Positions 20,869 to 35,134 of a stretch of 35,134 bases of DNA are shown here, one piece after another. The notes under the pieces are model-generated. The model was not told where the DNA came from, searched no databases, and was given only the letters and a program-made list of their open reading frames with translations. Origin of the DNA: Acidobacteriota bacterium. Lineage in GTDB: Bacteria > Acidobacteriota > Terriglobia > 20CM-2-55-15. Made by a program: the position numbers and the translations under genes. The DNA is taken from NCBI GenBank assembly GCA_023265365.1, contig JAHFTY010000012.1, positions 1 to 35,134 of the forward strand. The letters run 5' to 3'. Numbering within the stretch: position 1 is the stretch's first letter; the number at the start of each line of letters is the position of its first letter.

Positions 20869-22881
20869 ATGAAGATCAGTCTCAATTGGCTTAGAGAATT
20901 CGTGGACCTGCCGGACGACCCGCAAACGCTGGGCCGCAAGGTCACAAGCGTGGGTCTCGCCGTCGACCTCCTGGAATCGAAAGGTGGCGACACGCTTTAC
21001 GAATTCGACATCACGACGAACCGGCCGGATTGTCTCAACCATCTCGGCATGGCCCGCGAGGTCGGCGCGATCTATGGTTCGACGGTGAGAAAACCGGTCT
21101 TTGAAGTGAAGGAAGCCGACGAAGACACCGCCAATGTCTTTTCGATCGACATCGCCGACCCCGACCTCTGCGGCCGATATTGCGGGCGCTACATCGAGGG
21201 CGTGAGGATCGGTCCGTCTCCCGAGTGGCTTCAGAAGCGCCTCGAGTCGATCGGCCAGCGCTCCATCAACAACGTGGCCGACGTGACGAACTTCGTGATG
21301 ATGGAGCTCGGCCAGCCGCTGCATGCGTTCGACGCCGACACGCTGCACCATCAGCAGATCATCGTGCGGCGAGCGGACGTTGACGAACGGATCACGACAC
21401 TCGATGGGCAGCAGCGGACCCTGAATCCATCCATTCTGGTGATCGCCGACGCCGACCGTCCGGTTGCGATTGCCGGCGTCATGGGCGGAGCCGAAACCGA
21501 AATCTCGAACAAAACGGCGAATGTTCTTCTGGAAAGCGCTTACTTCTTCCCCGCCGGCATCCGGAAGACCGCACGATCGTTGAGCATGTCGACCGAAGCT
21601 TCGTATCGATACGAACGCGGCGGCGACATTGAGCTGGCCCGTTACGCCTGCGATCGGGCGGCTGCGCTGATTCAGCAGGTGGCCGGTGGCCGGATTTATC
21701 GCGGTGCGATTGACGTCTACCCGGCGCCGCACCAGCCGGTTGTGGCGAGCCTGCGGCGCCATCGCATCGAGGAATTCCTTGGCGCGCCCGTTCCGGACGA
21801 CGTCGTGGACCGGATCTTCCAGCGCCTGGGTTTCCAGCCCGCGCGCACGCCGGAGGGCTGGACGGTCACCGTGCCCAGCTATCGCGTGGATGTCGGCGAC
21901 GAAGAGGATCTGCTGGAAGAGGTCGCGCGCCATCACGGTTTCGACAATTTCCCGGCGACGCTTCCTCCCTTTGCCGGGTCCGGATCGGGCAAACCGTACG
22001 ATCAGGAGGAGCGGCAGCTTCGGAATGATCTGTCCGCGTTCGGCTACTCCGAAACGTACGGACTGTCATTCACCGATGAAACAACCGAGGCTCGATTCGG
22101 TCACGCCGAAAAGCCGGTTCGGCTGCTCAACCCGATGAGTGAAGACTGGACGTTGCTCCGCAGTTCACTGGTATCCGGCATTCTTCAGGCCGTTGAATGG
22201 AACATGCATCGCGGCCGGCGCGACCTCCAGTTGTATGAATTGGGCAAGGTCTATCGGGAAGGAAGTGAGAAACGGATGCTGGTTCTCGCTGCGACGGGCA
22301 TGCTGCTCCAGAAAAGCGTTCACGAAAACCCGAGGGAGGCCGGCTTCTACGACATCAAAGGCGACGTTGAAGCGATCCTCAGGGCATTCGATGTTTCCGG
22401 AACGACAACGCGCGAGAATCTGCCGAAGTACTATCACCCGGGCCGGTCGGCGCGTCTCGGCGGCTTCGCGGTTGCAGGCGAGATCCACCCGGACTACACG
22501 CCTGCCATGAAGCCTCATCAGCGCATCTGTCTCGCCGAAATTGACGTTGATGAAATTCTGAAATCGCGGCTGAGGCATGAAGCGAAGCCCGTCCTCAAAT
22601 ATCCGTCGATCCGGCGCGATCTCTCATTGTTGCTGGAGCGCGGCGTCGAGTATGCTGCGATCCGGAACACGATCGCGGATGCGGGAATTGCGGAACTGGT
22701 CCGGTTCGAACCGTTCGACCGGCTGGACAAGGGCCCGTTCCCGGATTCGAAGTACAGTCTTTCCGTTTCTCTGATCTATCAGTCGCCGGAGCGAACCCTT
22801 ACGGACAACGAGGTCGAGTCGCTTGACCGAAGAATTCTTGAACTGCTCGAACAGCGCCTCGGCGCTCAACTAAGGAAATAG
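20869..22881 (+). CDS. pheT: Phenylalanyl-tRNA synthetase beta subunit, short form
   Basis: 670 residues, against about 800 for E. coli-type subunits. Residues 1-40 (MKISLNWLREFVDLPDDPQT) run directly into the B3/B4-type segment (EFDITTNRPDCLNHLGMARE), so the EMAP-like OB tRNA-binding domain usually inserted at about residues 40-150 is missing. The rest is present: the VAIAGVMGGAETEIS region, B5 domain, core class II-like fold (LLNPMSEDWTLLRSSLVSGI), and the C-terminal anticodon-binding FDX-ACB domain (KYPSIRRDLSLLLERGVEY to the end). It is the structural and editing partner of PheS. Confidence 0.96.
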   Translation: MKISLNWLREFVDLPDDPQTLGRKVTSVGLAVDLLESKGGDTLYEFDITTNRPDCLNHLGMAREVGAIYGSTVRKPVFEVKEADEDTANVFSIDIADPDLCGRYCGRYIEGVRIGPSPEWLQKRLESIGQRSINNVADVTNFVMMELGQPLHAFDADTLHHQQIIVRRADVDERITTLDGQQRTLNPSILVIADADRPVAIAGVMGGAETEISNKTANVLLESAYFFPAGIRKTARSLSMSTEASYRYERGGDIELARYACDRAAALIQQVAGGRIYRGAIDVYPAPHQPVVASLRRHRIEEFLGAPVPDDVVDRIFQRLGFQPARTPEGWTVTVPSYRVDVGDEEDLLEEVARHHGFDNFPATLPPFAGSGSGKPYDQEERQLRNDLSAFGYSETYGLSFTDETTEARFGHAEKPVRLLNPMSEDWTLLRSSLVSGILQAVEWNMHRGRRDLQLYELGKVYREGSEKRMLVLAATGMLLQKSVHENPREAGFYDIKGDVEAILRAFDVSGTTTRENLPKYYHPGRSARLGGFAVAGEIHPDYTPAMKPHQRICLAEIDVDEILKSRLRHEAKPVLKYPSIRRDLSLLLERGVEYAAIRNTIADAGIAELVRFEPFDRLDKGPFPDSKYSLSVSLIYQSPERTLTDNEVESLDRRILELLEQRLGAQLRK

Positions 22882-22882
22882 A

Positions 22883-23152
22883 ATGTCAAACGCGTTCGAA
22901 AAATTTGAAGAGCTGGAAACGCGCATTATGCGCGCGGTGGAGTTGGTGAAGACGACGCGGCAGGAGAAGGAGAACCTGGAGAAGGAACTCTCCGGCTCGC
23001 GCTCGCAGATCGCGAAGATGGAACGCGAGCTGGAAGAGTTGAGACGGGAACGCGATTTGGTCAAGAATAGGATCGAGAATCTACTCCACAATCTTTCCGA
23101 GTTGACCGAGGAGCCGGGTGTCCAAACCGAAGTCACGTCCAATCGACGTTGA
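22883..23152 (+). CDS. ZapB-like coiled-coil protein
   Basis: 89 residues, starting one base after the pheT stop with AAGGAA as ribosome-binding site. Nearly the whole chain is a heptad-patterned coiled coil (FEKFEELETRIMRAVELVKT, ENLEKELSGSRSQIAKMERE, ELEELRRERDLVKNRIENLL). This matches ZapB-like cell-division factors in length and nature. The next gene is ZapA, with which it overlaps by 35 nt, and that context makes a role at the FtsZ ring likely. Confidence 0.75.
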   Translation: MSNAFEKFEELETRIMRAVELVKTTRQEKENLEKELSGSRSQIAKMERELEELRRERDLVKNRIENLLHNLSELTEEPGVQTEVTSNRR

Positions 23153-23420
23153 GATCTACGATCAGAAATACACAATCGTCCTCCAGAAGCCTCTTCCGGA
23201 GGACGAAGTGCGCGCCCTTGCCCAGGAAGTCGATGCCCGCATGCGCGACATCGCAGCCGTGGCCAGCACCGCCGACTCTCTGAAAGTCGCCGTCCTCACC
23301 GCGCTGCACCTCGCGCAGGAATACCGCGAGCTCAAGCGAAACTGCGATCGCAAGGATGCACTCCTCAACTCCAAAGCCACGGAATGGAGTCGCGCGCTGG
23401 AACAAGTCTTGAAGAAATAA
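23118..23420 (+). CDS. zapA: Cell division protein ZapA
   Basis: 100 residues starting at GTG 23118, preceded by GAGGAG within the upstream coding sequence. It shows the ZapA pattern: N-terminal beta hairpin (PIDVEIYDQKYTIVLQKPLP), a helix with VRALAQEVDARMRDIA, hydrophobic core SLKVAVLTALHLAQEYRELK and a C-terminal coiled coil. ZapA binds and bundles FtsZ filaments. The pheT-zapB-zapA order is shared with other bacteria. No 6S RNA, often found after zapA in gammaproteobacteria, is evident in the 9 bp before the next gene. Confidence 0.9.
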   Translation: MSKPKSRPIDVEIYDQKYTIVLQKPLPEDEVRALAQEVDARMRDIAAVASTADSLKVAVLTALHLAQEYRELKRNCDRKDALLNSKATEWSRALEQVLKK

Positions 23421-23429
23421 GAGCAATCG

Positions 23430-24836
23430 ATGCGGCGGCTCCTTCTCGCAACATTCATCATCCTCTGTCTTGCCGCAACCGGCGTGGCGCAGACCGGGGA
23501 TCGCATCGTGATCGTCCACACCGGCGATATCCATGGACAGATTCTCCCCAAAGACGGCGCCGGCGGAATGGCGGAACTGGCCACCATCCTCAAACGATCC
23601 GCCCCGGACCTGGTTCTCGACGCCGGCGACATGTTCACGGGCACCATGTTGAGCGACGAGCCGCAAGGCAAACCCACGATCGAAATCATGAACCGCCTGC
23701 ACTATGCCGTAGCCGCTCTGGGCAATCACGAATTCGATTACGGGGTCGACGCCTTCAGGGCCCGGGCCAAAGAAGCGCAGTTCCCGATTCTGTCGGCGAA
23801 TGTCCAGGGTATGGACGAAATCAAGCCTTACGCCATCCTGAGCGTGAGAGGCGTTCGCATTGGAGTGATCGGTCTCACGACAGAGGAACTCACAACCACC
23901 GCCCATCCGAAGAATTTGAAGAACATCAAACTGACCACGTTGGTCAACGCCATGGAGACCACGCTTCCCGTCGTGCGCCGGCAAAGCGACTTCATTATCG
24001 TGATGGCGCATCTGACCCAGGACGAACAGATCCGGATCGCGAAGTCCTTTCCCGAAGTGAAGCTGATCATTGCCGGCCATCCCCATCAGGTTCGCACCAC
24101 CGTTGTCGGAGGCACGACGATCGTCGAGGCCGGCAGCAGTTCGCGATTTGTCGGGCGTCTGGTCATTCGTCTCGACGGCAAGGTTCCCGAATCGATTACC
24201 GAGGAAGCCATTCCCGTTCGCGACGTCGCGCCCGATCCCGAGATCCAGGCGGTCATTGAACCCTATCGCAACGCCGTCGGAACGCGAAGTGCGGAGAAGA
24301 TTGGAGAGGCGACGGCCGATCTGTCGAGGAGCGAGTCCGAAGAGTCCGCGCTCAATAACCTCATTGCGGACGCCCTTCGCGCCGCCACCGGAACACAGAT
24401 CGCCATTCACAATGTGGGCGGGATCCGGGCAGGAATTTCCAGAGGCCCGATTACCTTCGGAAGCATCTTCGACGTCCTGCCTTTTTCGAACTCGGTCGTG
24501 ACGCTGAAGCTGACGGGCGCACAACTGAAACGAGTCCTCTCGAGGAGAGTGCTTGCCGTCAGCGGCATCCGGGTCGGATGGGACATCACCAGGCCTTCAG
24601 GCGCCCGGCTGGTCTGGGTCACGTTTTCGGACGGAACGCCGATTGAGGACGACCAGACCTACTCCATCGCGACAAACGATTTCGTGCAGGCGGGGGGAGA
24701 CGGCCTGCTCGAGTTTACGCAGGCTGCGGATGTCGCCGACTCGGAACGATTGCTGCGGGAAACCGTGGCCGGCTATGTCCGGCAAAACCCCGTGATCTCT
24801 GCAAAAACCGACGGCCGGGTCGTCATCAACAAGTAG
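23430..24836 (+). CDS. Secreted 5'-nucleotidase/UshA-family metallophosphoesterase
   Basis: 468 residues with a signal peptide (LLLATFIILCLAATGVAQT). The N-terminal metallophosphoesterase domain has the metal motifs VHTGDIHGQI, VLDAGDMFTGT, ALGNHEFDYG, MAHLTQDEQ and AGHPHQ. The C-terminal 5'-nucleotidase domain shows LNNLIADALRAATGTQIAIH, NVGGIRAGISRGPITFGSIF and DVLPFSNSVVTLKLTGAQLK. The family releases phosphate from extracellular nucleotides for nucleoside salvage; the exact substrate is not readable. It follows zapA by 9 bp and precedes the cyclase gene by 5 bp, so it may be cotranscribed with both. Confidence 0.93.
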   Translation: MRRLLLATFIILCLAATGVAQTGDRIVIVHTGDIHGQILPKDGAGGMAELATILKRSAPDLVLDAGDMFTGTMLSDEPQGKPTIEIMNRLHYAVAALGNHEFDYGVDAFRARAKEAQFPILSANVQGMDEIKPYAILSVRGVRIGVIGLTTEELTTTAHPKNLKNIKLTTLVNAMETTLPVVRRQSDFIIVMAHLTQDEQIRIAKSFPEVKLIIAGHPHQVRTTVVGGTTIVEAGSSSRFVGRLVIRLDGKVPESITEEAIPVRDVAPDPEIQAVIEPYRNAVGTRSAEKIGEATADLSRSESEESALNNLIADALRAATGTQIAIHNVGGIRAGISRGPITFGSIFDVLPFSNSVVTLKLTGAQLKRVLSRRVLAVSGIRVGWDITRPSGARLVWVTFSDGTPIEDDQTYSIATNDFVQAGGDGLLEFTQAADVADSERLLRETVAGYVRQNPVISAKTDGRVVINK

Positions 24837-24841
24837 GAGCC

Positions 24842-25843
24842 ATGAAAACAATCGCCATCGCCCTCCTCGTCATCGTCTGCATCGCCGCCGCGATTTCCGC
24901 CCGACCGCCACAAATGCGCACCGCCGGCCACAATGTCACTCAGGCCGATATGGACCGGTGGAAGAAAGAACTTTCGAATTGGGGGCGCTGGGGAAAAGAC
25001 GATGAGAAAGGAACGCTGAACCTCATCACGCCGGCCAAACGCAAGCAGGCGGCGGCCCTCGTCAAGGAAGGTTTAGCGGTGTCGCTCGCGCGCGACGCGG
25101 CCACCGAGAAGGATGTCGATAACCCGCAACCTTACGAGAACGTCATGATCTCCGACGGATCCAACAGGCCGGCGGCCACCGACCGAATCGCTGTGTCGAC
25201 GCATGGGCTCGCGCACACCCATCTCGATGCGCTGGCTCACCATTTCATCGGCGGAAAAATGTACAACGGGTTTTCGCAGAAGGAGTGGGTCTCGATGCAG
25301 GAGGGCGCAAGGAAGGCGTCGATCCACCAGGTGAAAGAAGGCATCTTCACGCGCGGCATATTGATGGACATTCCCAGACTGAAGGGCGTTCCCTACCTCG
25401 AACCCGGCACACCCATCTACGTCGAGGATCTCGAGGCGTGGGAAAAACAGGCCGGCATCAAGGTCTCCGCCGGCGACGCCGTTTTTATCCGGACCGGCCG
25501 CTGGGTGCGCCGCGCAAAACTGGGGCCTTCGACCACCGGCGAAGCGGGACTCGATGCGTCCGTCATTCCATGGTTGCGCCGGCGCGACGTCGCCGTGATC
25601 GGAAGCGAGGCGGCATTGAGCGTCACGCCGATTTCTCCGAACATCACCGATCCGGATGACTACCTGCCCCTGCACAACTTCGTTCTGGTGATCCTTGGCA
25701 TGAACGTCTTCGACGACTGCGACCTTGGCGCGCTCAGCGAGGCCGCGGCTGCCCGGAAGCGATGGGAGTTTCTGTTGACGGCCGCGCCACTTCCCCTGCG
25801 GCACGGCACGGGATCGCCCATCAACCCCACCGGCTTGTTTTGA
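24842..25843 (+). CDS. Secreted cyclase-family (kynurenine formamidase-like) metal hydrolase
   Basis: 333 residues with an N-terminal signal peptide (IAIALLVIVCIAAAISA). The cyclase-family fingerprint is STHGLAHTHLDALAHHF, whose histidines and aspartate bind metal. Supporting segments are WGRWGKDDEKGTLNLITPAK, ISAGDAVFIRTGRW-type VSAGDAVFIRTGRWVRR, and a C-terminal PLHNFVLVILGMNVFDDCDL. Members include arylformamidases and isatin hydrolases; the substrate here is unknown. It lies 5 bp after the 5'-nucleotidase gene and converges on the phosphatase gene with 12 bp between stops. Confidence 0.88.
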   Translation: MKTIAIALLVIVCIAAAISARPPQMRTAGHNVTQADMDRWKKELSNWGRWGKDDEKGTLNLITPAKRKQAAALVKEGLAVSLARDAATEKDVDNPQPYENVMISDGSNRPAATDRIAVSTHGLAHTHLDALAHHFIGGKMYNGFSQKEWVSMQEGARKASIHQVKEGIFTRGILMDIPRLKGVPYLEPGTPIYVEDLEAWEKQAGIKVSAGDAVFIRTGRWVRRAKLGPSTTGEAGLDASVIPWLRRRDVAVIGSEAALSVTPISPNITDPDDYLPLHNFVLVILGMNVFDDCDLGALSEAAAARKRWEFLLTAAPLPLRHGTGSPINPTGLF

Positions 25844-25855
25844 GCCGCCCCGTGG

Positions 25856-26866
25856 TTAGTAGATCGGAGTGACCTTGTCTCCCAGAATCTCCAGCGCGGA
25901 TGCACGGCCGCCGGCAAAGGTGGAGGAGAGCATTCCGGTGTCGATCAGAACCACCTGGCCGTCAAAGCGCGGCACGATCGTGCCCTCCTGCGGCGTGTGT
26001 CCGACGACGAAACGTTTCACGCCGAACGCCGAGGCGAGCTGCCGGATTGTGGCGTTGCCTTCCGCGTCGCTCCATTGCGCAAACCCGCGGAACCAGAGGG
26101 GGCCATCCGTGTTGATGGTCAGCCAGCTGCCATATCGAAGGAATGGTTCCAGCGCTTTCTTGTGATTCGCGTCCAGGCCCGCAGCGTTTGCGGCATCCGC
26201 CAGTTCTTTCAGCGTGGAAAGCGCCGTCGCGAGCTTCTGGTCAATCATGTACTTCCGCGAGGCGTCGAACAGCTTCACTTCGGCGGCGACCGCCTCATTG
26301 ATCTGATCGACTTTCCAGGACGCAAAATCCACCTTCAGACCGCCGTGCAGAAAGATGGTTTCGTTCACCTTGACGATCGCGGGAAGCGACCGCAGCCACT
26401 TTCCGTATTTGCCGCCGGGACCGAACGCCTCGCGATGCTCAACGAATCCCAACGGGACCGATGCACCGGAAGCCTTGCGGCGAGACTCGGACTTGTCGTC
26501 GACGTAGCTGGCGTAATCGCTTTCGGTCACGTAACGAAGGTCGCCGAACATGTTCATCGCTTCATGATTGCCCAGCAGGACAAGGACGCGCCCACCCTGC
26601 CGTGACGCCTCTTTTTGAAGCCGCATGAGGAGATCCATGACCGCCCGGCTCTTCGGACCGCGATCGAGGAAGTCGCCGGTCTGCACCAGCGTCGCATCGC
26701 GGCCGGACCAGTGGCGATTCGTATCGAGCAGAGCCGCGCGTTGCAGGATGGCGGCGAAAGCGTCGAAGTCACCATGGATGTCGCCAACCGCAACGACTCG
26801 AGGCGCCGCCGGCGGCGAGAACGCCAGGGCGAGGCACAAAAGCAGTGTGGCAACGGGTTTGACCAT
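25856..26866 (-). CDS. Secreted PPP-family (Shewanella-like) protein phosphatase
   Basis: 336 residues with a signal peptide (ATLLLCLALAFSPPA). All PPP metallophosphatase motifs are present in order: AVGDIHGD, VQTGDFLDRGP, LLGNHEAMN, IFLHGGL and VVGHTPQEG. The arrangement and the YASYVDDKSESRRK insert fit Shewanella-like Ser/Thr or Tyr protein phosphatases. It starts 9 bp after the stop of the CotH-like gene, so the two are probably cotranscribed and both exported. No clear ribosome-binding site precedes its ATG. Its physiological substrate is unknown; the neighbour is a candidate partner. Confidence 0.9.
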   Translation of the reverse strand: MVKPVATLLLCLALAFSPPAAPRVVAVGDIHGDFDAFAAILQRAALLDTNRHWSGRDATLVQTGDFLDRGPKSRAVMDLLMRLQKEASRQGGRVLVLLGNHEAMNMFGDLRYVTESDYASYVDDKSESRRKASGASVPLGFVEHREAFGPGGKYGKWLRSLPAIVKVNETIFLHGGLKVDFASWKVDQINEAVAAEVKLFDASRKYMIDQKLATALSTLKELADAANAAGLDANHKKALEPFLRYGSWLTINTDGPLWFRGFAQWSDAEGNATIRQLASAFGVKRFVVGHTPQEGTIVPRFDGQVVLIDTGMLSSTFAGGRASALEILGDKVTPIY

Positions 26867-26875
26867 TTCGCAATG

Positions 26876-28006
26876 TTACATCGTCGAGCGCGAGCAGCCG
26901 TTGATGAATGCTCGTTTCACCGACACCGGTCGGTCGATCGTGGAAAAGAACTCGCCGAGAAAGCCCTTCATCTCGTTCTTCGCCGGCGATTCGAGATCCG
27001 GGATCGTATCGAACGCGGCAAACATCTCCGTTTTCTTGGACCGGAAAGTTTCCAGAACGGTGGCGATCTGTTCTTCGGCGAGGCAGGGACCTCGATACAG
27101 GCGGTCCAGAACCGACTTGAGACCCAGTTTGGGCGCGGGATGGGAATACGGCGCGTGGACCAGACCGGAGAGGTCGAAATCGTAGGTCACCGGATAAAGG
27201 GACTTGTCGGGCGTCTGAACCAGAACGACGTTGTGCAGCGCGAATATCGAGAAGTCCGTGTTGCCGATCATGTATTGAAACACCATCATGTTCGCAAGCG
27301 TCTCGCGGTGCAGCTCCGAAAACAGGGTCCGCTCCAGCGCGACCACACGTCCGTCCATGCGCCGCGCCACGTCGCCGTCGTCTTCAAGAAGCAGACCGTA
27401 ACGGGTGGCGATCTGCTTCTTCGACGCCGAATCCACATACGTCACTCTTGCGAGCCGGGCGCGAAAGGATCTGGGCGTAAGGATGTTCGAGAGCTTGTAA
27501 GCGAGGTATTCGCGGAGAACAAACTGTTCGTGTTCCTTCGAGTTCTGGCAATGCGTGACCAGCTTCAACGCACCGGCCGGACCCTCAAAAACCGTTCCAT
27601 TGACACCATCCTTCTCGAATTCAATCCGCAATGGAACAAACGAGCACGTCATCGGCATCCGGCGAAGGTGCCCCCGGGCGCTGAGGCTCACGGCGATGGA
27701 CTTCCCGGCGCCCGCCGAATCGATCTTCAACAGGGCCGGATACCGCTTCGCGCTGTTGGGATCGCGATCTTTGTTGATGACTCCGAATGAACCCTCGATC
27801 GTGAACGACAAAGGCGTCTCGCTCTGAAATAACTCCCGGCGGAGGGCATCCATGCGGCGCGCGGTCATCGTCTCGGGCGCGGGCCATGGTTCGATGAGCT
27901 TGGCGAGTTTTTGAATCGGAGTTTTTTTCGGCGCGGGTGCCTGTGCACCGAGGGGCGACAGCGGGATCAAAAAAAGAAGGGCGGCGAGGGTCATTCGTTT
28001 CGTCAT
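26876..28006 (-). CDS. Secreted CotH-like protein (putative atypical kinase)
   Basis: 376 residues from ATG 28006 (ATG 27994 is possible); a 19-residue upstream extension precedes the signal peptide and is dropped. The signal peptide is MTLAALLFLIPLSPLGAQA. No common domain was recognised outright, but the layout resembles CotH: an N-lobe with ALLKIDSAG, SLSARGHLRRMP and a basic strand; a helix FVLREYLAYKLSNIL; RYGLLLEDDGDVARRM where CotH proteins have a G-x-Y-x-x-x-E-x-x-D stretch; MVFQYMIGNTDFSIFALHNV as a possible catalytic loop; and YPVTYDFDLSGLV as a D-x-D metal motif. CotH kinases phosphorylate secreted or spore proteins. This is pattern resemblance, not proof. Confidence 0.6.
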   Translation of the reverse strand: MTKRMTLAALLFLIPLSPLGAQAPAPKKTPIQKLAKLIEPWPAPETMTARRMDALRRELFQSETPLSFTIEGSFGVINKDRDPNSAKRYPALLKIDSAGAGKSIAVSLSARGHLRRMPMTCSFVPLRIEFEKDGVNGTVFEGPAGALKLVTHCQNSKEHEQFVLREYLAYKLSNILTPRSFRARLARVTYVDSASKKQIATRYGLLLEDDGDVARRMDGRVVALERTLFSELHRETLANMMVFQYMIGNTDFSIFALHNVVLVQTPDKSLYPVTYDFDLSGLVHAPYSHPAPKLGLKSVLDRLYRGPCLAEEQIATVLETFRSKKTEMFAAFDTIPDLESPAKNEMKGFLGEFFSTIDRPVSVKRAFINGCSRSTM

Positions 28007-28070
28007 GGACGGTGATTCTCGGTCTCGAGGAATCAGGACGCAAGATATAAAAGCCTTTCGCATTCATGTG

Positions 28071-28076
28071 ATAATC
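28071..28076 (+). promoter_or_regulatory. Possible -10 element of the Oar-like receptor gene
   Basis: GATAAT lies 22 bp before the receptor ATG and just ahead of its GGAGG ribosome-binding site, in the 92-bp gap to the divergent CotH-like gene. No convincing -35 was found. Confidence 0.3.
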
Positions 28077-28098
28077 GCGCACATCGGAGGAAACACGA

Positions 28099-31000
28099 AT
28101 GTCCAGGCGCACGGCCATTATTCTGGCCTCGATACTGCTTTTCATTCCCGTATCCGCACGCGCTCAGCGGACCGCTGCAACGATCACCGGAACGGTGGTG
28201 GACGCCAGCGGTGCGGTCATTCCCAGCGTGACCCTCACGCTCGAAAACCTGCGGACCGGAGTCGTCGCCACAAACGTGTCCAATGAAACGGGCAACTATT
28301 TTTTCACTTCAGTTCAGCCGGGATTGTACAAGTTGACGGCGGAACTGCCGGGGTTCAACAAATACGTTCTGAATGAGATCACCGTCGATGTCGCCGCGCG
28401 AATGGGAATCAACATACCGATGGAAGTCGCCGGCGCCGTGGGCGCCGTTGAAGTCACAGCGCGGCCGGAATCGCCGCTGTTCATCAACTCTCCTTCGGTC
28501 GGCGGAGTCATCAACGGTCAGCGGCTTCTGGAACTCCCGCTGCCCAGCCGGGACGCGCTGGGCCTGGTTCTGACGCAGCCCGGCCTGCTCGGCGACAACT
28601 TCGGCGGAGCGCGCATCGGCGCGCTGAATGTCACGCGGGACGGCATCAATGTGATGGATCAGCGGATCAATTCCGGCGTGAACTCGGTGGTCTTCACAAG
28701 CGTCGATACGGTCGAAGAAGTTCGAGTCGTGACTTCGCCCGTGGACGCGGAACTGGGACGCGGATCCGGCCAGGTCCAGATGTCGACGCGATCGGGGACG
28801 AACACGATTCACGGCAGCGTCTACGAAACCCACCGCAACACCGTCCTGAACGCGAACGACTTCTTCAACAACATGTTCGGGATCGAACGCGACGCCCTCA
28901 TCCGAAACAGCTACGGCGGCCGCCTGGGGGGACCGATAAAGAAGGATAAAACGTTTTTCCTCGTCGTGTATGAAGGCGATCGGTTGAGAACTGCGGAGAC
29001 GGTGGTGGCCACGGTCTTCACCCAGCCGGCGCGGGACGGCGTCTTCCGCTTCTTCCCGGGCGTGCAGAACCAGAATGCCGATGGCGCCGCCCCGACCGTC
29101 GACGTCCTCGGCAACCCGGTAAAGCCTTCGGCGACCGCGCAACTCCAATCCGTGTCTCTGTATGGCCGCGATCCCCTGCGAAACGGGCCCGATCCCACAG
29201 GCGTCGTTCGAAAACTTCTCGATGTGATGCCGCTGCCGAATGACTTCCGGGCCGGCGACGGCTTAAACACCGCAGGCTACCGATGGCGCAGGAAAGCCGC
29301 GGCGAATTACGGACAGATCAATGCCAAAGTCGACCACTACATCAACAAACTTCACAAGGCCTCGTTTACCCTTACGCGCGAGAAACTGCGATTCAGGAAC
29401 GGTTTCCTGCCGCAAACCTTTCCGAACTCGCCGGGCGGAGAGGTGACTTCGCCGGCCATGGTCTACCAGGCCGAACTGAGTTCCACGTTTTCGCCGCGCC
29501 TCGTGAACGATTTCTATGTTGGAGGCCAGCGCGCGCGCGTCCGTTTCACGGCCCCATGGGAACTCCCCGGCGGCAAGAGTCTGATGCCGGCGGCAAACGG
29601 ATACGGATACCTTCCGGTGTTCTCGATGGTCAGCGACCCGATCCCGACCGACAACGATCCGCAGGGTCGCATTACCCCACTGTATGCGTATGGCGACAAG
29701 CTGCAGTGGTTCAAAGGCAAGCACGCTCTCAAAATCGGCGGCGAAATCCGTTTCGTCAGCACGAACGGCTTCAACGCATTCGATGTCGTTCCACGCGTGT
29801 TTTTCGGGTTCGGCGACGGTCCGGATCTGGTGGGCGTAAACGCTCAGGGAATTCCCGGGCTGGGTCAGAACGAAGGCAACGCGCAATACATGCTGGGCGA
29901 TCTTGCCGGAGCGGTCGACAGCATCACCCAGGCTTTCAATGCGTCCGGCGGAACGAAACCGGCTTTTCTTGCAGGCGAAAGCAAGCAGCGTACGTGGCGG
30001 CAACGGGAGTTCAGCCTCTACGCGCAGGACGACTTCAAGCTGAAACCGCGGCTGACGCTGAACCTTGGCCTCCGCTACGAATTCTACGGAGTGCCGTGGG
30101 ACGCGAACGGCAGAACGGCCGGACTCGTTGGAGGGTCCAACGGCCTGTTCGGCATTTCCGGAAACTCCTGGTCGGATCTGTACAATCCCGGCACTTCCAA
30201 CGGACAACTCACCCAGGTTCAGTTGATCGGAAAGCGATCGCCGAATCCGAATACCAACCTGTACAACAACGACTGGAATAACCTCGGCCCCGTCGTGGGC
30301 TTGAGCTGGTCGATGCCCTATTTTGGAAAAGACAAAACGGTTCTTCGCGCCGGCTACAGCGTTTCCTACGAGCGCGAAGCACTCCGTCTTGTCGATATCG
30401 TCGCGGGTGACCAGCCCGGTCTCCGGTCCGAAACGACTTTCACGGCCTTCAGCGCGCTGAACCTGACGCAGATCCGTCTGCCCCTGACGCCTCCGGGACA
30501 ACCGCTCGCAGTCGTTCCCCTCGAGGATCGGAGCCAGGCCGTGCGGTCGTTCGACAACAATCTGCGCACACCCTATATCCAGAACTGGAATCTGACGATC
30601 CAGCGCGAACTTCCAGGGGGATTCACCCTCGATGTTCGTTACGTCGGCGGCAAAGCAACCAAGCTCTGGCGCGCAATCAACATCAACGAAGTAAACATTT
30701 TCGAGAATGGGATCCTGGAGGCCTTTCGAATCACGCAGCAGGGCGGAAACGCTCCGTTGTTCGATCGCCTTTTCTCGGGGTTCAATCTGGGCCTTGGCAC
30801 AATCAACGGCCGGACAGTCACCGGCTCCGCGTCTCTTCGGCAATTCGCAACAACCCGCGCCTACCTCGCCAACAACAGCGTGGGCGCCTTCGCCGACTTC
30901 GTGAATCGCGCCAGCGTCCAGGGCGAGCGCGGGGCCATTCCGCGATTCGCGCTCCTGCCGGAAAACTGGATCACCGTCAATCCGCAGTTTGCCGCGGCGC

Positions 31001-31851
31001 AATACATCGGCAACCTCTCGAATTCGACGTACAACTCGATGCAGTTGAATGCTCAGAAACGACTATCGTCCGGCTGGGATTTTCAAACGAACTACACCTG
31101 GAGCCGTTCTCTCGGCGACGAGGAGGGGGACTCCCAGGACCTGCTGAACAGTTTCCGGAACGGCAGGAATCGGCGCATCGACAAACGCCTGCTGGGATTC
31201 CATCGGACCCACATATTCCGGAACAGCGGAACGTGGGAACTGCCGATCGGACCCGGAAAAACGATTCTTCCCAACATGCCCAGGTTTCTCGGAAAGGTCG
31301 CGGGCGGCTGGCAGTTCGGCGGAATCGTCAATGTCTTCTCCGGGCCTCCGATCAGTTTCGATTCCGGCGTCACCTCGTTCAACCAGTTCGTCGACAACAC
31401 CGCAACGCTTGTCGGCCCATTGGCCAGGGATGCCGGCGGAGTGAAGAAAACGGCGAACGGCGTGGTTTACTTCGACGGCTTCACGCAGGTCAACGACCCG
31501 GACATCGCAACACTGACGTCCGCACAGTTACTCAATACGCGAAGCGCCATGAAAGCGATCGCCGACTCTTCGGGCAGAGTGGTTGCCGTCAATCCCACTC
31601 CGGGGACTCTGGGATCCTTGTCGCAAACCTATCTCGAAGGACCTGGCGCCTTTCGCTTCGACGTGAACCTGATCAAGAAGTTCAAGTTTCACGAGAGCCG
31701 CGAGGTCCAGATGAGAGTGGATATCCAGAATCTTCTGAACAAGGCTCAGTTCGCCGATCCGGTCACCGACATCAACTCGACGAGTTTCGGCCGCCTCAGG
31801 GCTTCGGGAGGAAACCGGGTGATCGCCATCCAGGCGAGGATCAGCTTTTAG
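28099..31851 (+). CDS. Oar-like TonB-dependent outer-membrane receptor
   Basis: 1250 residues, start supported by GGAGG. A signal peptide (IILASILLFIPVSARAQ) is followed by a carboxypeptidase-regulatory-like Ig fold at about 25-115 (ATITGTVVDASGAVIPSVTL, GNYFFTSVQPGLYKLTAELP). A plug domain comes next (GGVINGQRLLELPLPSRDAL, VEEVRVVTSPVDAELGRGSG, GTNTIHGSVYE) and then a long beta barrel with repeated Tyr/Asn-rich strands. The last residue is Phe (AIQARISF), as expected for an outer-membrane barrel. Such receptors are expanded in Acidobacteriota and probably import or secrete large substrates, often glycans or peptides. No TonB, ExbB or SusD-like gene is adjacent. Its stop overlaps that of the convergent RRM gene by four bases (31848-31851). 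Confidence 0.95.
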   Translation: MSRRTAIILASILLFIPVSARAQRTAATITGTVVDASGAVIPSVTLTLENLRTGVVATNVSNETGNYFFTSVQPGLYKLTAELPGFNKYVLNEITVDVAARMGINIPMEVAGAVGAVEVTARPESPLFINSPSVGGVINGQRLLELPLPSRDALGLVLTQPGLLGDNFGGARIGALNVTRDGINVMDQRINSGVNSVVFTSVDTVEEVRVVTSPVDAELGRGSGQVQMSTRSGTNTIHGSVYETHRNTVLNANDFFNNMFGIERDALIRNSYGGRLGGPIKKDKTFFLVVYEGDRLRTAETVVATVFTQPARDGVFRFFPGVQNQNADGAAPTVDVLGNPVKPSATAQLQSVSLYGRDPLRNGPDPTGVVRKLLDVMPLPNDFRAGDGLNTAGYRWRRKAAANYGQINAKVDHYINKLHKASFTLTREKLRFRNGFLPQTFPNSPGGEVTSPAMVYQAELSSTFSPRLVNDFYVGGQRARVRFTAPWELPGGKSLMPAANGYGYLPVFSMVSDPIPTDNDPQGRITPLYAYGDKLQWFKGKHALKIGGEIRFVSTNGFNAFDVVPRVFFGFGDGPDLVGVNAQGIPGLGQNEGNAQYMLGDLAGAVDSITQAFNASGGTKPAFLAGESKQRTWRQREFSLYAQDDFKLKPRLTLNLGLRYEFYGVPWDANGRTAGLVGGSNGLFGISGNSWSDLYNPGTSNGQLTQVQLIGKRSPNPNTNLYNNDWNNLGPVVGLSWSMPYFGKDKTVLRAGYSVSYEREALRLVDIVAGDQPGLRSETTFTAFSALNLTQIRLPLTPPGQPLAVVPLEDRSQAVRSFDNNLRTPYIQNWNLTIQRELPGGFTLDVRYVGGKATKLWRAININEVNIFENGILEAFRITQQGGNAPLFDRLFSGFNLGLGTINGRTVTGSASLRQFATTRAYLANNSVGAFADFVNRASVQGERGAIPRFALLPENWITVNPQFAAAQYIGNLSNSTYNSMQLNAQKRLSSGWDFQTNYTWSRSLGDEEGDSQDLLNSFRNGRNRRIDKRLLGFHRTHIFRNSGTWELPIGPGKTILPNMPRFLGKVAGGWQFGGIVNVFSGPPISFDSGVTSFNQFVDNTATLVGPLARDAGGVKKTANGVVYFDGFTQVNDPDIATLTSAQLLNTRSAMKAIADSSGRVVAVNPTPGTLGSLSQTYLEGPGAFRFDVNLIKKFKFHESREVQMRVDIQNLLNKAQFADPVTDINSTSFGRLRASGGNRVIAIQARISF

Positions 31852-32102
31852 TCATCGAGCGGTGAGCGCCCTCGCCGCACGTAAAGCCTGCGGTTGCCAA
31901 AGGGCTGCTGATCCAGGGCGCTGACCGCGGCGTCTGCGGGGACGGAATTCAGTTGCACGCGCGCGAAAGAAGGCGAAGTGCCGGTGACGACATCTCGAAT
32001 CAGGCGAAGGTCATTGACCTTGAATCCGTGTCCTTCGATCCAGGTGCGAAGGTCGGCGTCGTTACTGTTGTGAGGAATATTGGCAAACAATAGATTTTCC
32101 AT
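31848..32102 (-). CDS. Small RRM-domain RNA-binding protein
   Basis: 84 residues from ATG 32102, preceded by TTGGAGCC. A single RNA-recognition motif fills the protein: RNP2-like LLFANIP, helix DADLRTWIEGHGF, RNP1-like SFARVQL, and C-terminal QPFGNRRLYVRRGRSP. RNP1 lacks the usual G-F-G/A-F-V core, so binding may be atypical. The frame is open upstream to 32252, but that part does not resemble an RRM. Relatives in cyanobacteria and other phyla are cold- or stress-linked RNA-binding proteins. It is tail to tail with the receptor gene. Confidence 0.85.
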   Translation of the reverse strand: MENLLFANIPHNSNDADLRTWIEGHGFKVNDLRLIRDVVTGTSPSFARVQLNSVPADAAVSALDQQPFGNRRLYVRRGRSPLDD

Positions 32103-32181
32103 GTTCCGGCTCCAAGTAAGTTTTCGTGTTTTCCAAAACTCTTGGACGGCTTTGTCGGGTGACGGCTGCGTCAAGGCAGGG

Positions 32182-32197
32182 AGTACAACGCTGTACT
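32182..32197. promoter_or_regulatory. Possible operator palindrome
   Basis: AGTACA-ACGC-TGTACT is a perfect 6-bp inverted repeat in the 221-bp gap between the divergent RRM and membrane-TPR genes. It could be a regulator site or a short hairpin; no cognate regulator is nearby. The rest of the gap holds nothing recognisable. Confidence 0.3.
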
Positions 32198-32323
32198 TGA
32201 GCGCAGAGTCTAACCTAAAGACTGAAGGGATTGCCATAACATTTCGGGCCATAGTATCGTCTGCGCCACAGGTACCCCATGAATGAATTCCATGAGCTGA
32301 TGGGCCGCAAACCCTGAGTCTGT

Positions 32324-34651
32324 ATGTCGTATCGCAGTACTTTCATCGATTCGCCGCTCAGCGACTCCGTTTTTCTTCTCGGCATTCCGCTGATCGCACT
32401 TGGCGGAGCCATGACGCTGCTTCATTTCAACATCGTCACGCTCGCCGCCTTTGTCGGCTTCACCGCGATCTACACTGGCGCTCATCATCTGCCGGGATTG
32501 CTGCGCGCCTACGGAACAAGGGAAATCCTCGAGGCGAATCGCACACGTCTGATTTTGGCTCCGGTGCTGATCTTCTCGTTGATTCTGTTCCTCGAGTTCA
32601 AAGGCCTTCGCGCCTATATCGTCGTGCTGTGGTTCTTCAACTGGTGGCACACGGCGCGCCAGAACTACGGTCTTCTTCGCATCTACGAACGAAAGGCCAT
32701 GCCGGCGGTTTCCGGATCGGTGAAGCTCGATATGATCTCCATCGTCGTCTGGCATTTCACGGCGAGCGAGCTTCTTTCGGACGATATGCGGTTCGAACTC
32801 GCTCAGCACCTTTTCAATTTGAATATCCATAACGCCGCGCTGGTCTCGTCGGGGTTATGGGTTTTGCGGGGCGTGGGAATCGGGGCATCCACTGTTCTGC
32901 TGGTCCTGTACGTACGGAACTCGGTGGCGCAGTTTCGAGCGAACAAGACGGTGGCGATCAATAAGCAGATCTTCCTGCTGGTGACGTACGGGTTCTATTT
33001 CCTAATGTTTTCGATGGTCATGGAAGACATGGCGACCAGCGTGGAGTCGTTTTACCACAATACCCAATACGTCTTCTTTGCCTGGATCATGCAGCGCCGG
33101 CTTGGTGAAAAGAGCGCGCAGTTCAACGGGCTGGGCGCTCTCTTTTCGATGAAAAACAGAGGTGGGGCAGTGCTTGCCTACGTGGGAGTCGTCGCGGGCT
33201 GGGGAATTCTCGTCGGCGGGTCCATCAAACCGCGCATCGAAGTGCAGCAGGTGGTGCCGATGTTCAACGCCTTCTATGCGACCGCCGCCTTTCTGCACTA
33301 CTACACGGACAGCTTCATCTGGAAGGCGCGCAGCAGGGAGTTGAGTTCCGTCCTGAGCCTGAAAGGCGGCGCCGGAGTCGAGTTGTCCCCACGATCGTTC
33401 GCGTTTTCATTTGCGGAAATCGCGGCGTGGATTCTGATTCCGATCGGGATCGTCACGATGGCGACCAATCCACAAAATCGTTCGCATGAAGGCGTCCGGC
33501 AGAACGCGAACCTTGCGAGGTTTTCCGAGGAGGCCCTGCGCTACCGTGAGCGCTGGCCGCAAGCCGCGATCGCGGCGGTCAACGTGGGAGACTTTCTGGC
33601 TTCCGGTGATGAGCCGTCGAAGTCCATCGAGTGGTACGAGCGAGGCGTGGCGCTTCGCCCCGATTATGCGGATGCCTGGCAGGCCCTGGGTCATGTGTAT
33701 TCGACGGAGCACGATCCGGAAAAAGCCGCGGCCGCGTACGAAGAGGCGGTCGCGCTGGATCCGACCTTCAAAGGAAGTTTCAATAATCTCGGGATCGCCT
33801 ATTCGCTGCTGGGTGACTTCAACAAGGCGCGCGCGGCTTATGAGCACGCGATTTCTCTCGACCCTGCGTACCTGGACGCTTGCTTGAATCTTGCGAGTCT
33901 GTTTGCCGAACGGGGCGACCTGGACACTGCTCGAACCGGGTACCAGCGCGTCCTGTCCCTGGACCCGGCATCGGCCGAAGCCCTGGCAGCGTTGGGGAAG
34001 ATCGCTGCGCAACTGGGCCAGTTTGATGTGGCCGACAAATACTTTTCTGAACTTATTCGGCGATTTCCCGATGAACCTCAAGGGTACCTGCTGCTCGGAA
34101 AGATCGGCCTTTCACGTCAGGACTTCGCATCGGCGGAAAGAAATCTCAGTGCGGCGGTGGCGAGGAACCCAAGGCTGCCGGAGGCTCGCCTGATGCTCGC
34201 GAATTTCTATATGACGCAATCGGAACCGGAACGCGCATTGAAAGAGGTCGAAGCTCTTATCGATATCGATCCGGGACGCGCTGCGGGCTACATCGTCAAA
34301 TCGCAGGTCCTCATGAATTTCCACCGGCTGCGTGAAGCGGCAACCGCGCTGGAAGAAGCAGCCCGCCTTGAACCCGCGAATGCGGAAGCCCATGGAAACC
34401 TCGGCTCGGTGTACGCGAAGCTCAACCGCGGAGAAGATGCGAAGCAGCATCTGCAGAAGGCCGTCGTGCTGGACCCGAACTACTCGGACGCTTATTACGA
34501 GTTGGCTCTGCTGTGGGAAAAGAAAGGGGATCGATCCGTCGCGATGATGTATCTCAATCAGGCTGTCGCGCACGGCAATCACGCCGCGGCCCGTAAGCGC
34601 CTTCAGGAGCTGATGGCGGAAACCACGGGCGGAAAAACAGGAAATGACTAG
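32324..34651 (+). CDS. Polytopic membrane protein with histidine motifs fused to a TPR tail
   Basis: 775 residues from ATG 32324; no clear ribosome-binding site. Residues 15-440 contain about eight to ten hydrophobic segments. Several carry conserved-looking histidines: HH at 54-55 (YTGAHHLPG), His109 (WWHTARQNYG), His144, His245 (FYHNTQYVFFAW) and His325 (LHYYTDSFIWKAR). The spread of His/Asp/Gln motifs at membrane edges recalls membrane di-iron or metal enzymes, but no named family was recognised. From about residue 440 the protein is a run of roughly nine TPRs (SIEWYERGVALRPDYADAWQ, KAAAAYEEAVALDPTFKGSF and so on) ending with KTGND. The TPR part probably binds partners; on which side of the membrane is unclear. 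Confidence 0.85.
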   Translation: MSYRSTFIDSPLSDSVFLLGIPLIALGGAMTLLHFNIVTLAAFVGFTAIYTGAHHLPGLLRAYGTREILEANRTRLILAPVLIFSLILFLEFKGLRAYIVVLWFFNWWHTARQNYGLLRIYERKAMPAVSGSVKLDMISIVVWHFTASELLSDDMRFELAQHLFNLNIHNAALVSSGLWVLRGVGIGASTVLLVLYVRNSVAQFRANKTVAINKQIFLLVTYGFYFLMFSMVMEDMATSVESFYHNTQYVFFAWIMQRRLGEKSAQFNGLGALFSMKNRGGAVLAYVGVVAGWGILVGGSIKPRIEVQQVVPMFNAFYATAAFLHYYTDSFIWKARSRELSSVLSLKGGAGVELSPRSFAFSFAEIAAWILIPIGIVTMATNPQNRSHEGVRQNANLARFSEEALRYRERWPQAAIAAVNVGDFLASGDEPSKSIEWYERGVALRPDYADAWQALGHVYSTEHDPEKAAAAYEEAVALDPTFKGSFNNLGIAYSLLGDFNKARAAYEHAISLDPAYLDACLNLASLFAERGDLDTARTGYQRVLSLDPASAEALAALGKIAAQLGQFDVADKYFSELIRRFPDEPQGYLLLGKIGLSRQDFASAERNLSAAVARNPRLPEARLMLANFYMTQSEPERALKEVEALIDIDPGRAAGYIVKSQVLMNFHRLREAATALEEAARLEPANAEAHGNLGSVYAKLNRGEDAKQHLQKAVVLDPNYSDAYYELALLWEKKGDRSVAMMYLNQAVAHGNHAAARKRLQELMAETTGGKTGND

Positions 34652-34676: not shown

Positions 34677-34706
34677 TTGACCTTGAGACAGCCGGTCCCC
34701 TACAAT
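34677..34706 (+). promoter_or_regulatory. Sigma70-type promoter of the structured RNA
   Basis: TTGACC (34677-34682), an 18-bp spacer and TACAAT (34701-34706) form one of the better promoter matches in the window. Transcription would begin about 34711-34713, exactly where the structured RNA's closing stem begins. Confidence 0.6.
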
Positions 34707-34710
34707 CAGG

Positions 34711-34912
34711 AAACCCTGCGAAGAGTCGTGTTGGTTCGAACTAAAATTTGAACCAATGCTTATTTGAAAGGGAGCCTGATTAACGCGTGGTGTGTGGGCC
34801 TTAAACCTTCAACGGTACTTAGGTCCCCTAAAGCGCGGATAGGGCGCCCACCTGTGTATGCAGGTTCAAATAGGTCAGAGCCACACGCCTGAGTGGGGTT
34901 TTTCCTTTTTGT
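34711..34912 (+). ncRNA. Structured RNA of about 200 nt, class not assigned (riboswitch-like leader or 6S-like RNA)
   Basis: It begins at the predicted start of the preceding promoter and ends in GGGGTTTTTCCTTTTT. Helices seen by eye: 34711-34719 with 34893-34901 (AAACCCTGC/GTGGGGTTT, two wobbles); local hairpin TTGGTTC 34731-34737 with GAACCAA 34750-34756; long-range 34758-34768 with 34865-34875 (core TATTTGAA/TTCAAATA); GTGGGC 34794-34799 with GCCCAC 34846-34851; TTAGG/CCTAA 34819-34831. GGTGTGTGG 34789-34797 can pair with CCACACGCC 34881-34889, crossing the long-range helix, which implies a pseudoknot or an alternative fold. There is no open frame of note. Its end lies 13 bp from the next start codon, favouring a cis-regulatory leader; length and closing stem would also suit a 6S RNA. 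Confidence 0.55.
34881..34912 (+). terminator. U-tract terminator at the end of the structured RNA
   Basis: CCAC (34881-34884) can pair with GTGG (34893-34896), ahead of GGTTTTTCCTTTTT. The stem is short. The alternative closing stem 34711-34719/34893-34901 ends on the same U-tract, so termination may depend on which fold forms. Confidence 0.45.
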
Positions 34913-34925
34913 GAAAAGAGGACCG

Positions 34926-35134
34926 ATGAAACGGCAACTCCGAATCTGCGGCGTGACGGCCGCGATGCTCCTGACCATCCCTTTCGCTGTCGCGCAGAGG
35001 GCTGCGGCTCCCCATCCGATCACGCGCGCGCTCGAGGACGAAGTGAAACGGGCGATGGAGGTGCTCCAGGCGAAGGGCAACCCCGCGCCTTACTTCATCA
35101 ACTATGAAGTCCACGACATCCAAAGGGTCCAGGT
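34926..35134 (+). CDS. Secreted TldD/PmbA-related protein (5' part, cut by window end)
   Basis: Starting at ATG 34926, preceded by AAAAGAGGA, 69 complete codons are present. A signal peptide (ICGVTAAMLLTIPFAVAQ) leads into LEDEVKRAMEVLQAKGNPAP and YFINYEVHDIQRVQ. Acidobacterial TldD-related metallopeptidase-like proteins often begin this way, with a helix then P-Y-F-x-x-Y-x-V-x-D. The catalytic part lies beyond the window, so the family call is tentative. It directly follows the structured RNA, which may control it. Confidence 0.6.
   Translation, partial: MKRQLRICGVTAAMLLTIPFAVAQRAAAPHPITRALEDEVKRAMEVLQAKGNPAPYFINYEVHDIQRVQ

Follow-up and report, generated by a model that had tools for sequence, protein, structure and literature searches.

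The window, that is, the whole stretch of DNA that was analysed, comprises 35,134 nucleotides of contig JAHFTY010000012.1 from an Acidobacteriota bacterium (assembly GCA_023265365.1, positions 1 to 35,134, forward strand). Its genes include pheS (from 19775), pheT (20869) and zapA (23118), which are followed by approximately 11 kb (23430-34651) of other genes, among them those of a nucleotidase, a TonB-type outer-membrane protein and a TPR gene. The TPR gene stops at 34651 and a TldD/PmbA-like gene begins with an ATG at 34927; the gap of about 275 nt that separates them holds a structured RNA, which lies on the forward strand from 34710. Two TldD/PmbA-like genes are arranged in tandem after the RNA, at contig positions 34927-38334, in front of ymdB (contig 38402) and ffh. 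A run of N, which marks an assembly gap, lies at contig positions 35135-35144 inside the first of them, so the break in the reading frame of this gene belongs to the assembly and need not exist in the organism. The proteins most closely related to the TldD-like protein come from metagenome genomes that are labelled Acidobacteria gp5, in keeping with an acidobacterial host. The coordinates of the features are collected in the table below.

The gap is strongly folded at the RNA level, as had been proposed from the letters alone. The minimum free energy of its RNA is -88.2 kcal/mol, which corresponds to z = -5.5; none of 200 shuffled sequences folds as well. The promoter described by the earlier note is also present as a promoter-like site, and its -10-like box, CTANNAT, occupies the same alignment position in all 11 members of the family. 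The U-tract that had been noticed at the end of the RNA corresponds to a T-run at about 34900-34904. Several family members have no T-run after the closing stem, e.g., GCGGGCCCCAGCTGTAGCC (alignment columns 240-260); consequently, the 3' ends of these RNAs may arise by differing means within the family.

Table. Features of the RNA locus and of its neighbours, with positions in the window.
Feature	Position	Strand	Evidence or remark
pheT, upstream anchor of the 6S block	20869..22881	+	Pfam B3_4, tRNA_synthFbeta, FDX-ACB, B5
zapA	23118..23420	+	Pfam ZapA, 50.5 bits; 62% identity to a relative's zapA
Putative sigma-70-type promoter, TTGACC-18 nt-TACAAT	34677..34706	+	consensus scan; 0.1 expected per shuffled region
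6S (SsrS) RNA	34710..34903	+	full-length RF00013 match; present in 11/11 family genomes
Closing stem, 5' strand	34713..34735	+	pairs with 34881-34900; compensatory changes at several pairs
Helix P2, 5' strand, presumed product-RNA (pRNA) template, UUUGAACC	34747..34754	+	pairs with 34863-34870
Presumed pRNA start, base after CCAA	34757	+	predicted from RF00013 alignment and motif; cf. E. coli U44
Distal 5' central bubble, CUUAUUUGA	34758..34768	+	collapse-helix strand; pairs with 34865-34875
Apical arm with terminal loop	34770..34849	+	23 consensus pairs, 4 with compensatory changes
3' central-bubble hairpin, ACCUGU/GCAGGU	34850..34865	+	predicted upon P2 displacement; pairing kept in family
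Helix P2, 3' strand, GGUUCAAA	34863..34870	+	common to P2, 3' hairpin and collapse helix
Closing stem, 3' strand, with T-run	34881..34904	+	bases also claimed for the second helix of the earlier note, which is unsupported
TldD/PmbA-like gene, start	34927..35134	+	Pfam PmbA_TldD_3rd on continuation; neighbour, outside the RNA system

The RNA is almost certainly the product of this genome's 6S RNA (SsrS) gene, which has a promoter-like site of its own and would yield a transcript of approximately 190 nt. 6S RNA is a known small RNA that imitates an open promoter and blocks RNA polymerase reversibly. When all Rfam families were scanned over the whole window, RF00013 was the single match; it covers model positions 1-187 of 187 and reaches 62.9 bits (E 2.5e-10), the curated gathering cut-off being 46.4 bits. 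Within the stretch of the RNA, no other Rfam family was found at E = 1 or better. The Rfam scan had been suggested by the earlier note, with a strong match to a known class as the result that would speak against its own reading. Such a match was found, and it bears out the option that the note had kept in reserve, namely a divergent 6S RNA. The RNA resembles 6S RNAs in its length, its closing stem, central bubble and apical arm, its occurrence as a single copy (a search of the genome found one) and its linkage to zapA, and the bubble motifs TGAACCAA...CAGGTTCAA are conserved. It differs in that its sequence is divergent and that the locus in the family has the order pheT-zapA-6S-ymdB-ffh. The gene adds an ordinary member, not labelled before, to a known RNA family. 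A model built from the family detects 6S RNA in 11 of 11 family genomes with 160-217 bits, scores that arise partly by construction because the same 11 sequences were used for the model, and the Rfam model alone also detects it in all 11.

The genomic setting of the gene can be followed through its relatives. The block pheT-zapA-6S-ymdB-ffh occurs in 10 of the 11 family genomes, all four protein genes lying no more than 1.5 kb from the 6S gene, and zapA is the gene directly upstream. Among 48 more distant loci, pheT is near 6S in 31 and zapA lies within 1.5 kb of it in 24. The E. coli ssrS gene is also linked to zapA. In the window's genome, zapA is found about 11 kb upstream, and it seems that 6S kept its place in the ancestral block as other genes came in on either side. 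Relocation of the 6S gene was also considered, as an initial tblastn search returned no shared neighbours; yet zapA and ymdB flank the RNA distantly on the same contig, and insertion is the better explanation.

The fold was evaluated on the family alignment of 11 sequences. The 6S rod, which consists of the closing stem, P2 and the apical arm, has 97.2% paired cells and seven pairs that changed on both sides, and this combination of pairing and covariation was equalled by none of 500 shuffles and by no slid version. The 5' strand of P2 aligns with a conserved RF00013 pairing. The segment UUGGUUC (34731-34737) is perfectly complementary to GAACCAA (34750-34756), which gives the 5' strand of P2 a third alternative; this pairing has a probability of about 0.03 in the free RNA and looks like a terminator in a simple scan.

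The alternatives to a 6S RNA concern both the kinship of the molecule and its role. A new, unnamed structured RNA without any kinship to 6S would agree with the divergent sequence, the modest score and a blastn search against a plasmid collection that returned no match, but the model is matched over its full length, 6S anatomy and zapA linkage accompany the match, and homologues are spread across the phylum (130 of 199 genomes in a phylum sample, best score 117 bits). Such an RNA is therefore extremely improbable. Equally little credit can be given to the proposal of the earlier note that the RNA is a transcription-attenuating riboswitch, or leader, which controls the TldD-like gene by exchanging a second helix (34789-34797/34881-34889) for the terminator hairpin. 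Indeed, 22 nt separate the end of the RNA from the ATG of the TldD-like gene on the same strand, and a T-run follows the last stem of the RNA. However, the 6S match spans the whole RNA, the usual neighbours are zapA, ymdB and pheT, and a tldD gene adjoins 6S in only one of 59 loci, that of the window's genome; for this reason, the riboswitch is unsupported and the TldD neighbour is incidental.

The second helix fares no better. It is complementary on paper in the single sequence, with 85.9% paired cells in the 11 family sequences, but 226 of 500 shuffles equal it, its covariation score lies under the shuffled mean, and its probability in the predicted ensemble is 0.00. Its 3' strand belongs to the covarying closing stem. 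The helix is chance complementarity, and its failure, along with the synteny, led to the rejection of the riboswitch. The same lack of covariation and zero probability also speak against a conserved pseudoknot in which both crossing helices of the earlier note would coexist, and this candidate was discarded. A milder version is that the 6S RNA doubles as a tldD leader in this single genome, where, after the insertion of tldD, readthrough past the 3' end of 6S would feed tldD transcription. The short distance and common strand agree with it, as does the fact that the arrangement is unique to the window's genome, while the T-run after the closing stem argues against it; a second promoter was not found in a 451-base scan, which counts neither way. 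We regard this version as unlikely.

The locus is thus best read as a 6S gene. The present analysis itself supplies the assignment to the family, the fold and its conservation, the genomic setting and the predicted switch described below, whereas binding to the polymerase, the product RNA and release would follow the pattern of 6S RNAs that have been studied. By this analogy, the rod with its central bubble would imitate an open promoter and bind the holoenzyme of RNA polymerase and the housekeeping sigma factor when nutrients are scarce. Once NTPs are available again, the polymerase would use the 5' side of the bubble as the template for a short pRNA, starting near 34757 and reading through GAACC toward the closing stem. 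The motif TGA(A/G)CC(A/G)A(C/U) at this presumed start is conserved in the phylum. The 5' end of the pRNA is predicted to be AUUGGUUC here and GUUGGUUC in relatives. Its synthesis would unzip P2 (34747-34754/34863-34870), and the freed 3' strand could then form both the hairpin at 34850-34865 and the helix 34758-34768/34865-34875, after which the refolded RNA would depart from the polymerase.

The latter helix is the other of the two that the earlier note had listed, and here the note was right: 11 standard pairs exist, and their core is invariant in the family. It corresponds to the known "central bubble collapse helix" of 6S RNAs. What stands of the two-helix claim is fold switching, in which P2 competes with the collapse helix as a real alternative fold at the central bubble; the crossing pseudoknot does not stand, as helix 34789-34797/34881-34889 is unsupported. 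In the predicted ensemble of the free RNA, P2 has a probability of about 0.97 and the core of the collapse helix about 0.03. When the eight presumed template bases were blocked in constrained folding, the core pairs of the collapse helix reached 0.93-1.0 and the 3' hairpin reached 0.64-1.0. After blocking, at least six collapse-helix pairs are predicted in 11 of 11 family members (0.5 expected with the distal bubble shuffled), although these rows are mutually related and do not represent independent events. The corresponding count is 10 of 45 for more distant homologues, with 1.8 expected. Since P2 and most pairs of the collapse helix are nearly invariant in the family, covariation cannot prove either of them. 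For the free RNA of three of the 11 relatives, another bubble fold is predicted over P2, which makes the ground state uncertain in those relatives.

Both refolding elements have counterparts in other bacteria. A collapse helix in which the 3' strand of P2 pairs with the distal 5' bubble was described for B. subtilis 6S-1 and A. aeolicus 6S RNA (Ganapathy et al. 2022, PMC8876501), whereas E. coli 6S RNA forms an extended 3' hairpin of 9 bp, which is reported to be absent from the B. subtilis and A. aeolicus RNAs (PMC8876501). The extended 3' hairpin and the collapse helix are treated as alternatives in the literature considered here. Here too, as in B. subtilis and A. aeolicus, re-pairing is possible between the distal 5' central bubble and the 3' strand of P2, but a 3' hairpin of 6 bp, to which part of the same strand contributes, is predicted as well. 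As in E. coli, the opening of P2 is predicted to let its 3' strand form a hairpin with the 3' bubble, but this hairpin is shorter (6 bp vs. 9 bp) and is joined by the collapse helix. It is possible, although we hold it only tentatively and at somewhat less than even chances, that the 6S RNA of this lineage unites an E. coli-type 3' hairpin with a collapse helix of the B. subtilis/A. aeolicus type, the 3' strand of P2 contributing to each. Any novelty would lie in this combination alone, which is suggested by structure prediction and nearly invariant sequence.

The analysis gives a name to a gene that had not been annotated and disposes of a mistaken riboswitch lead. In a phylum remote from the model organisms, 6S and zapA are still neighbours, which can aid in finding divergent 6S genes there. 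Moreover, the family alignment offers a testable lineage for work on 6S RNA, in which both refolding elements seem to be present in one molecule.
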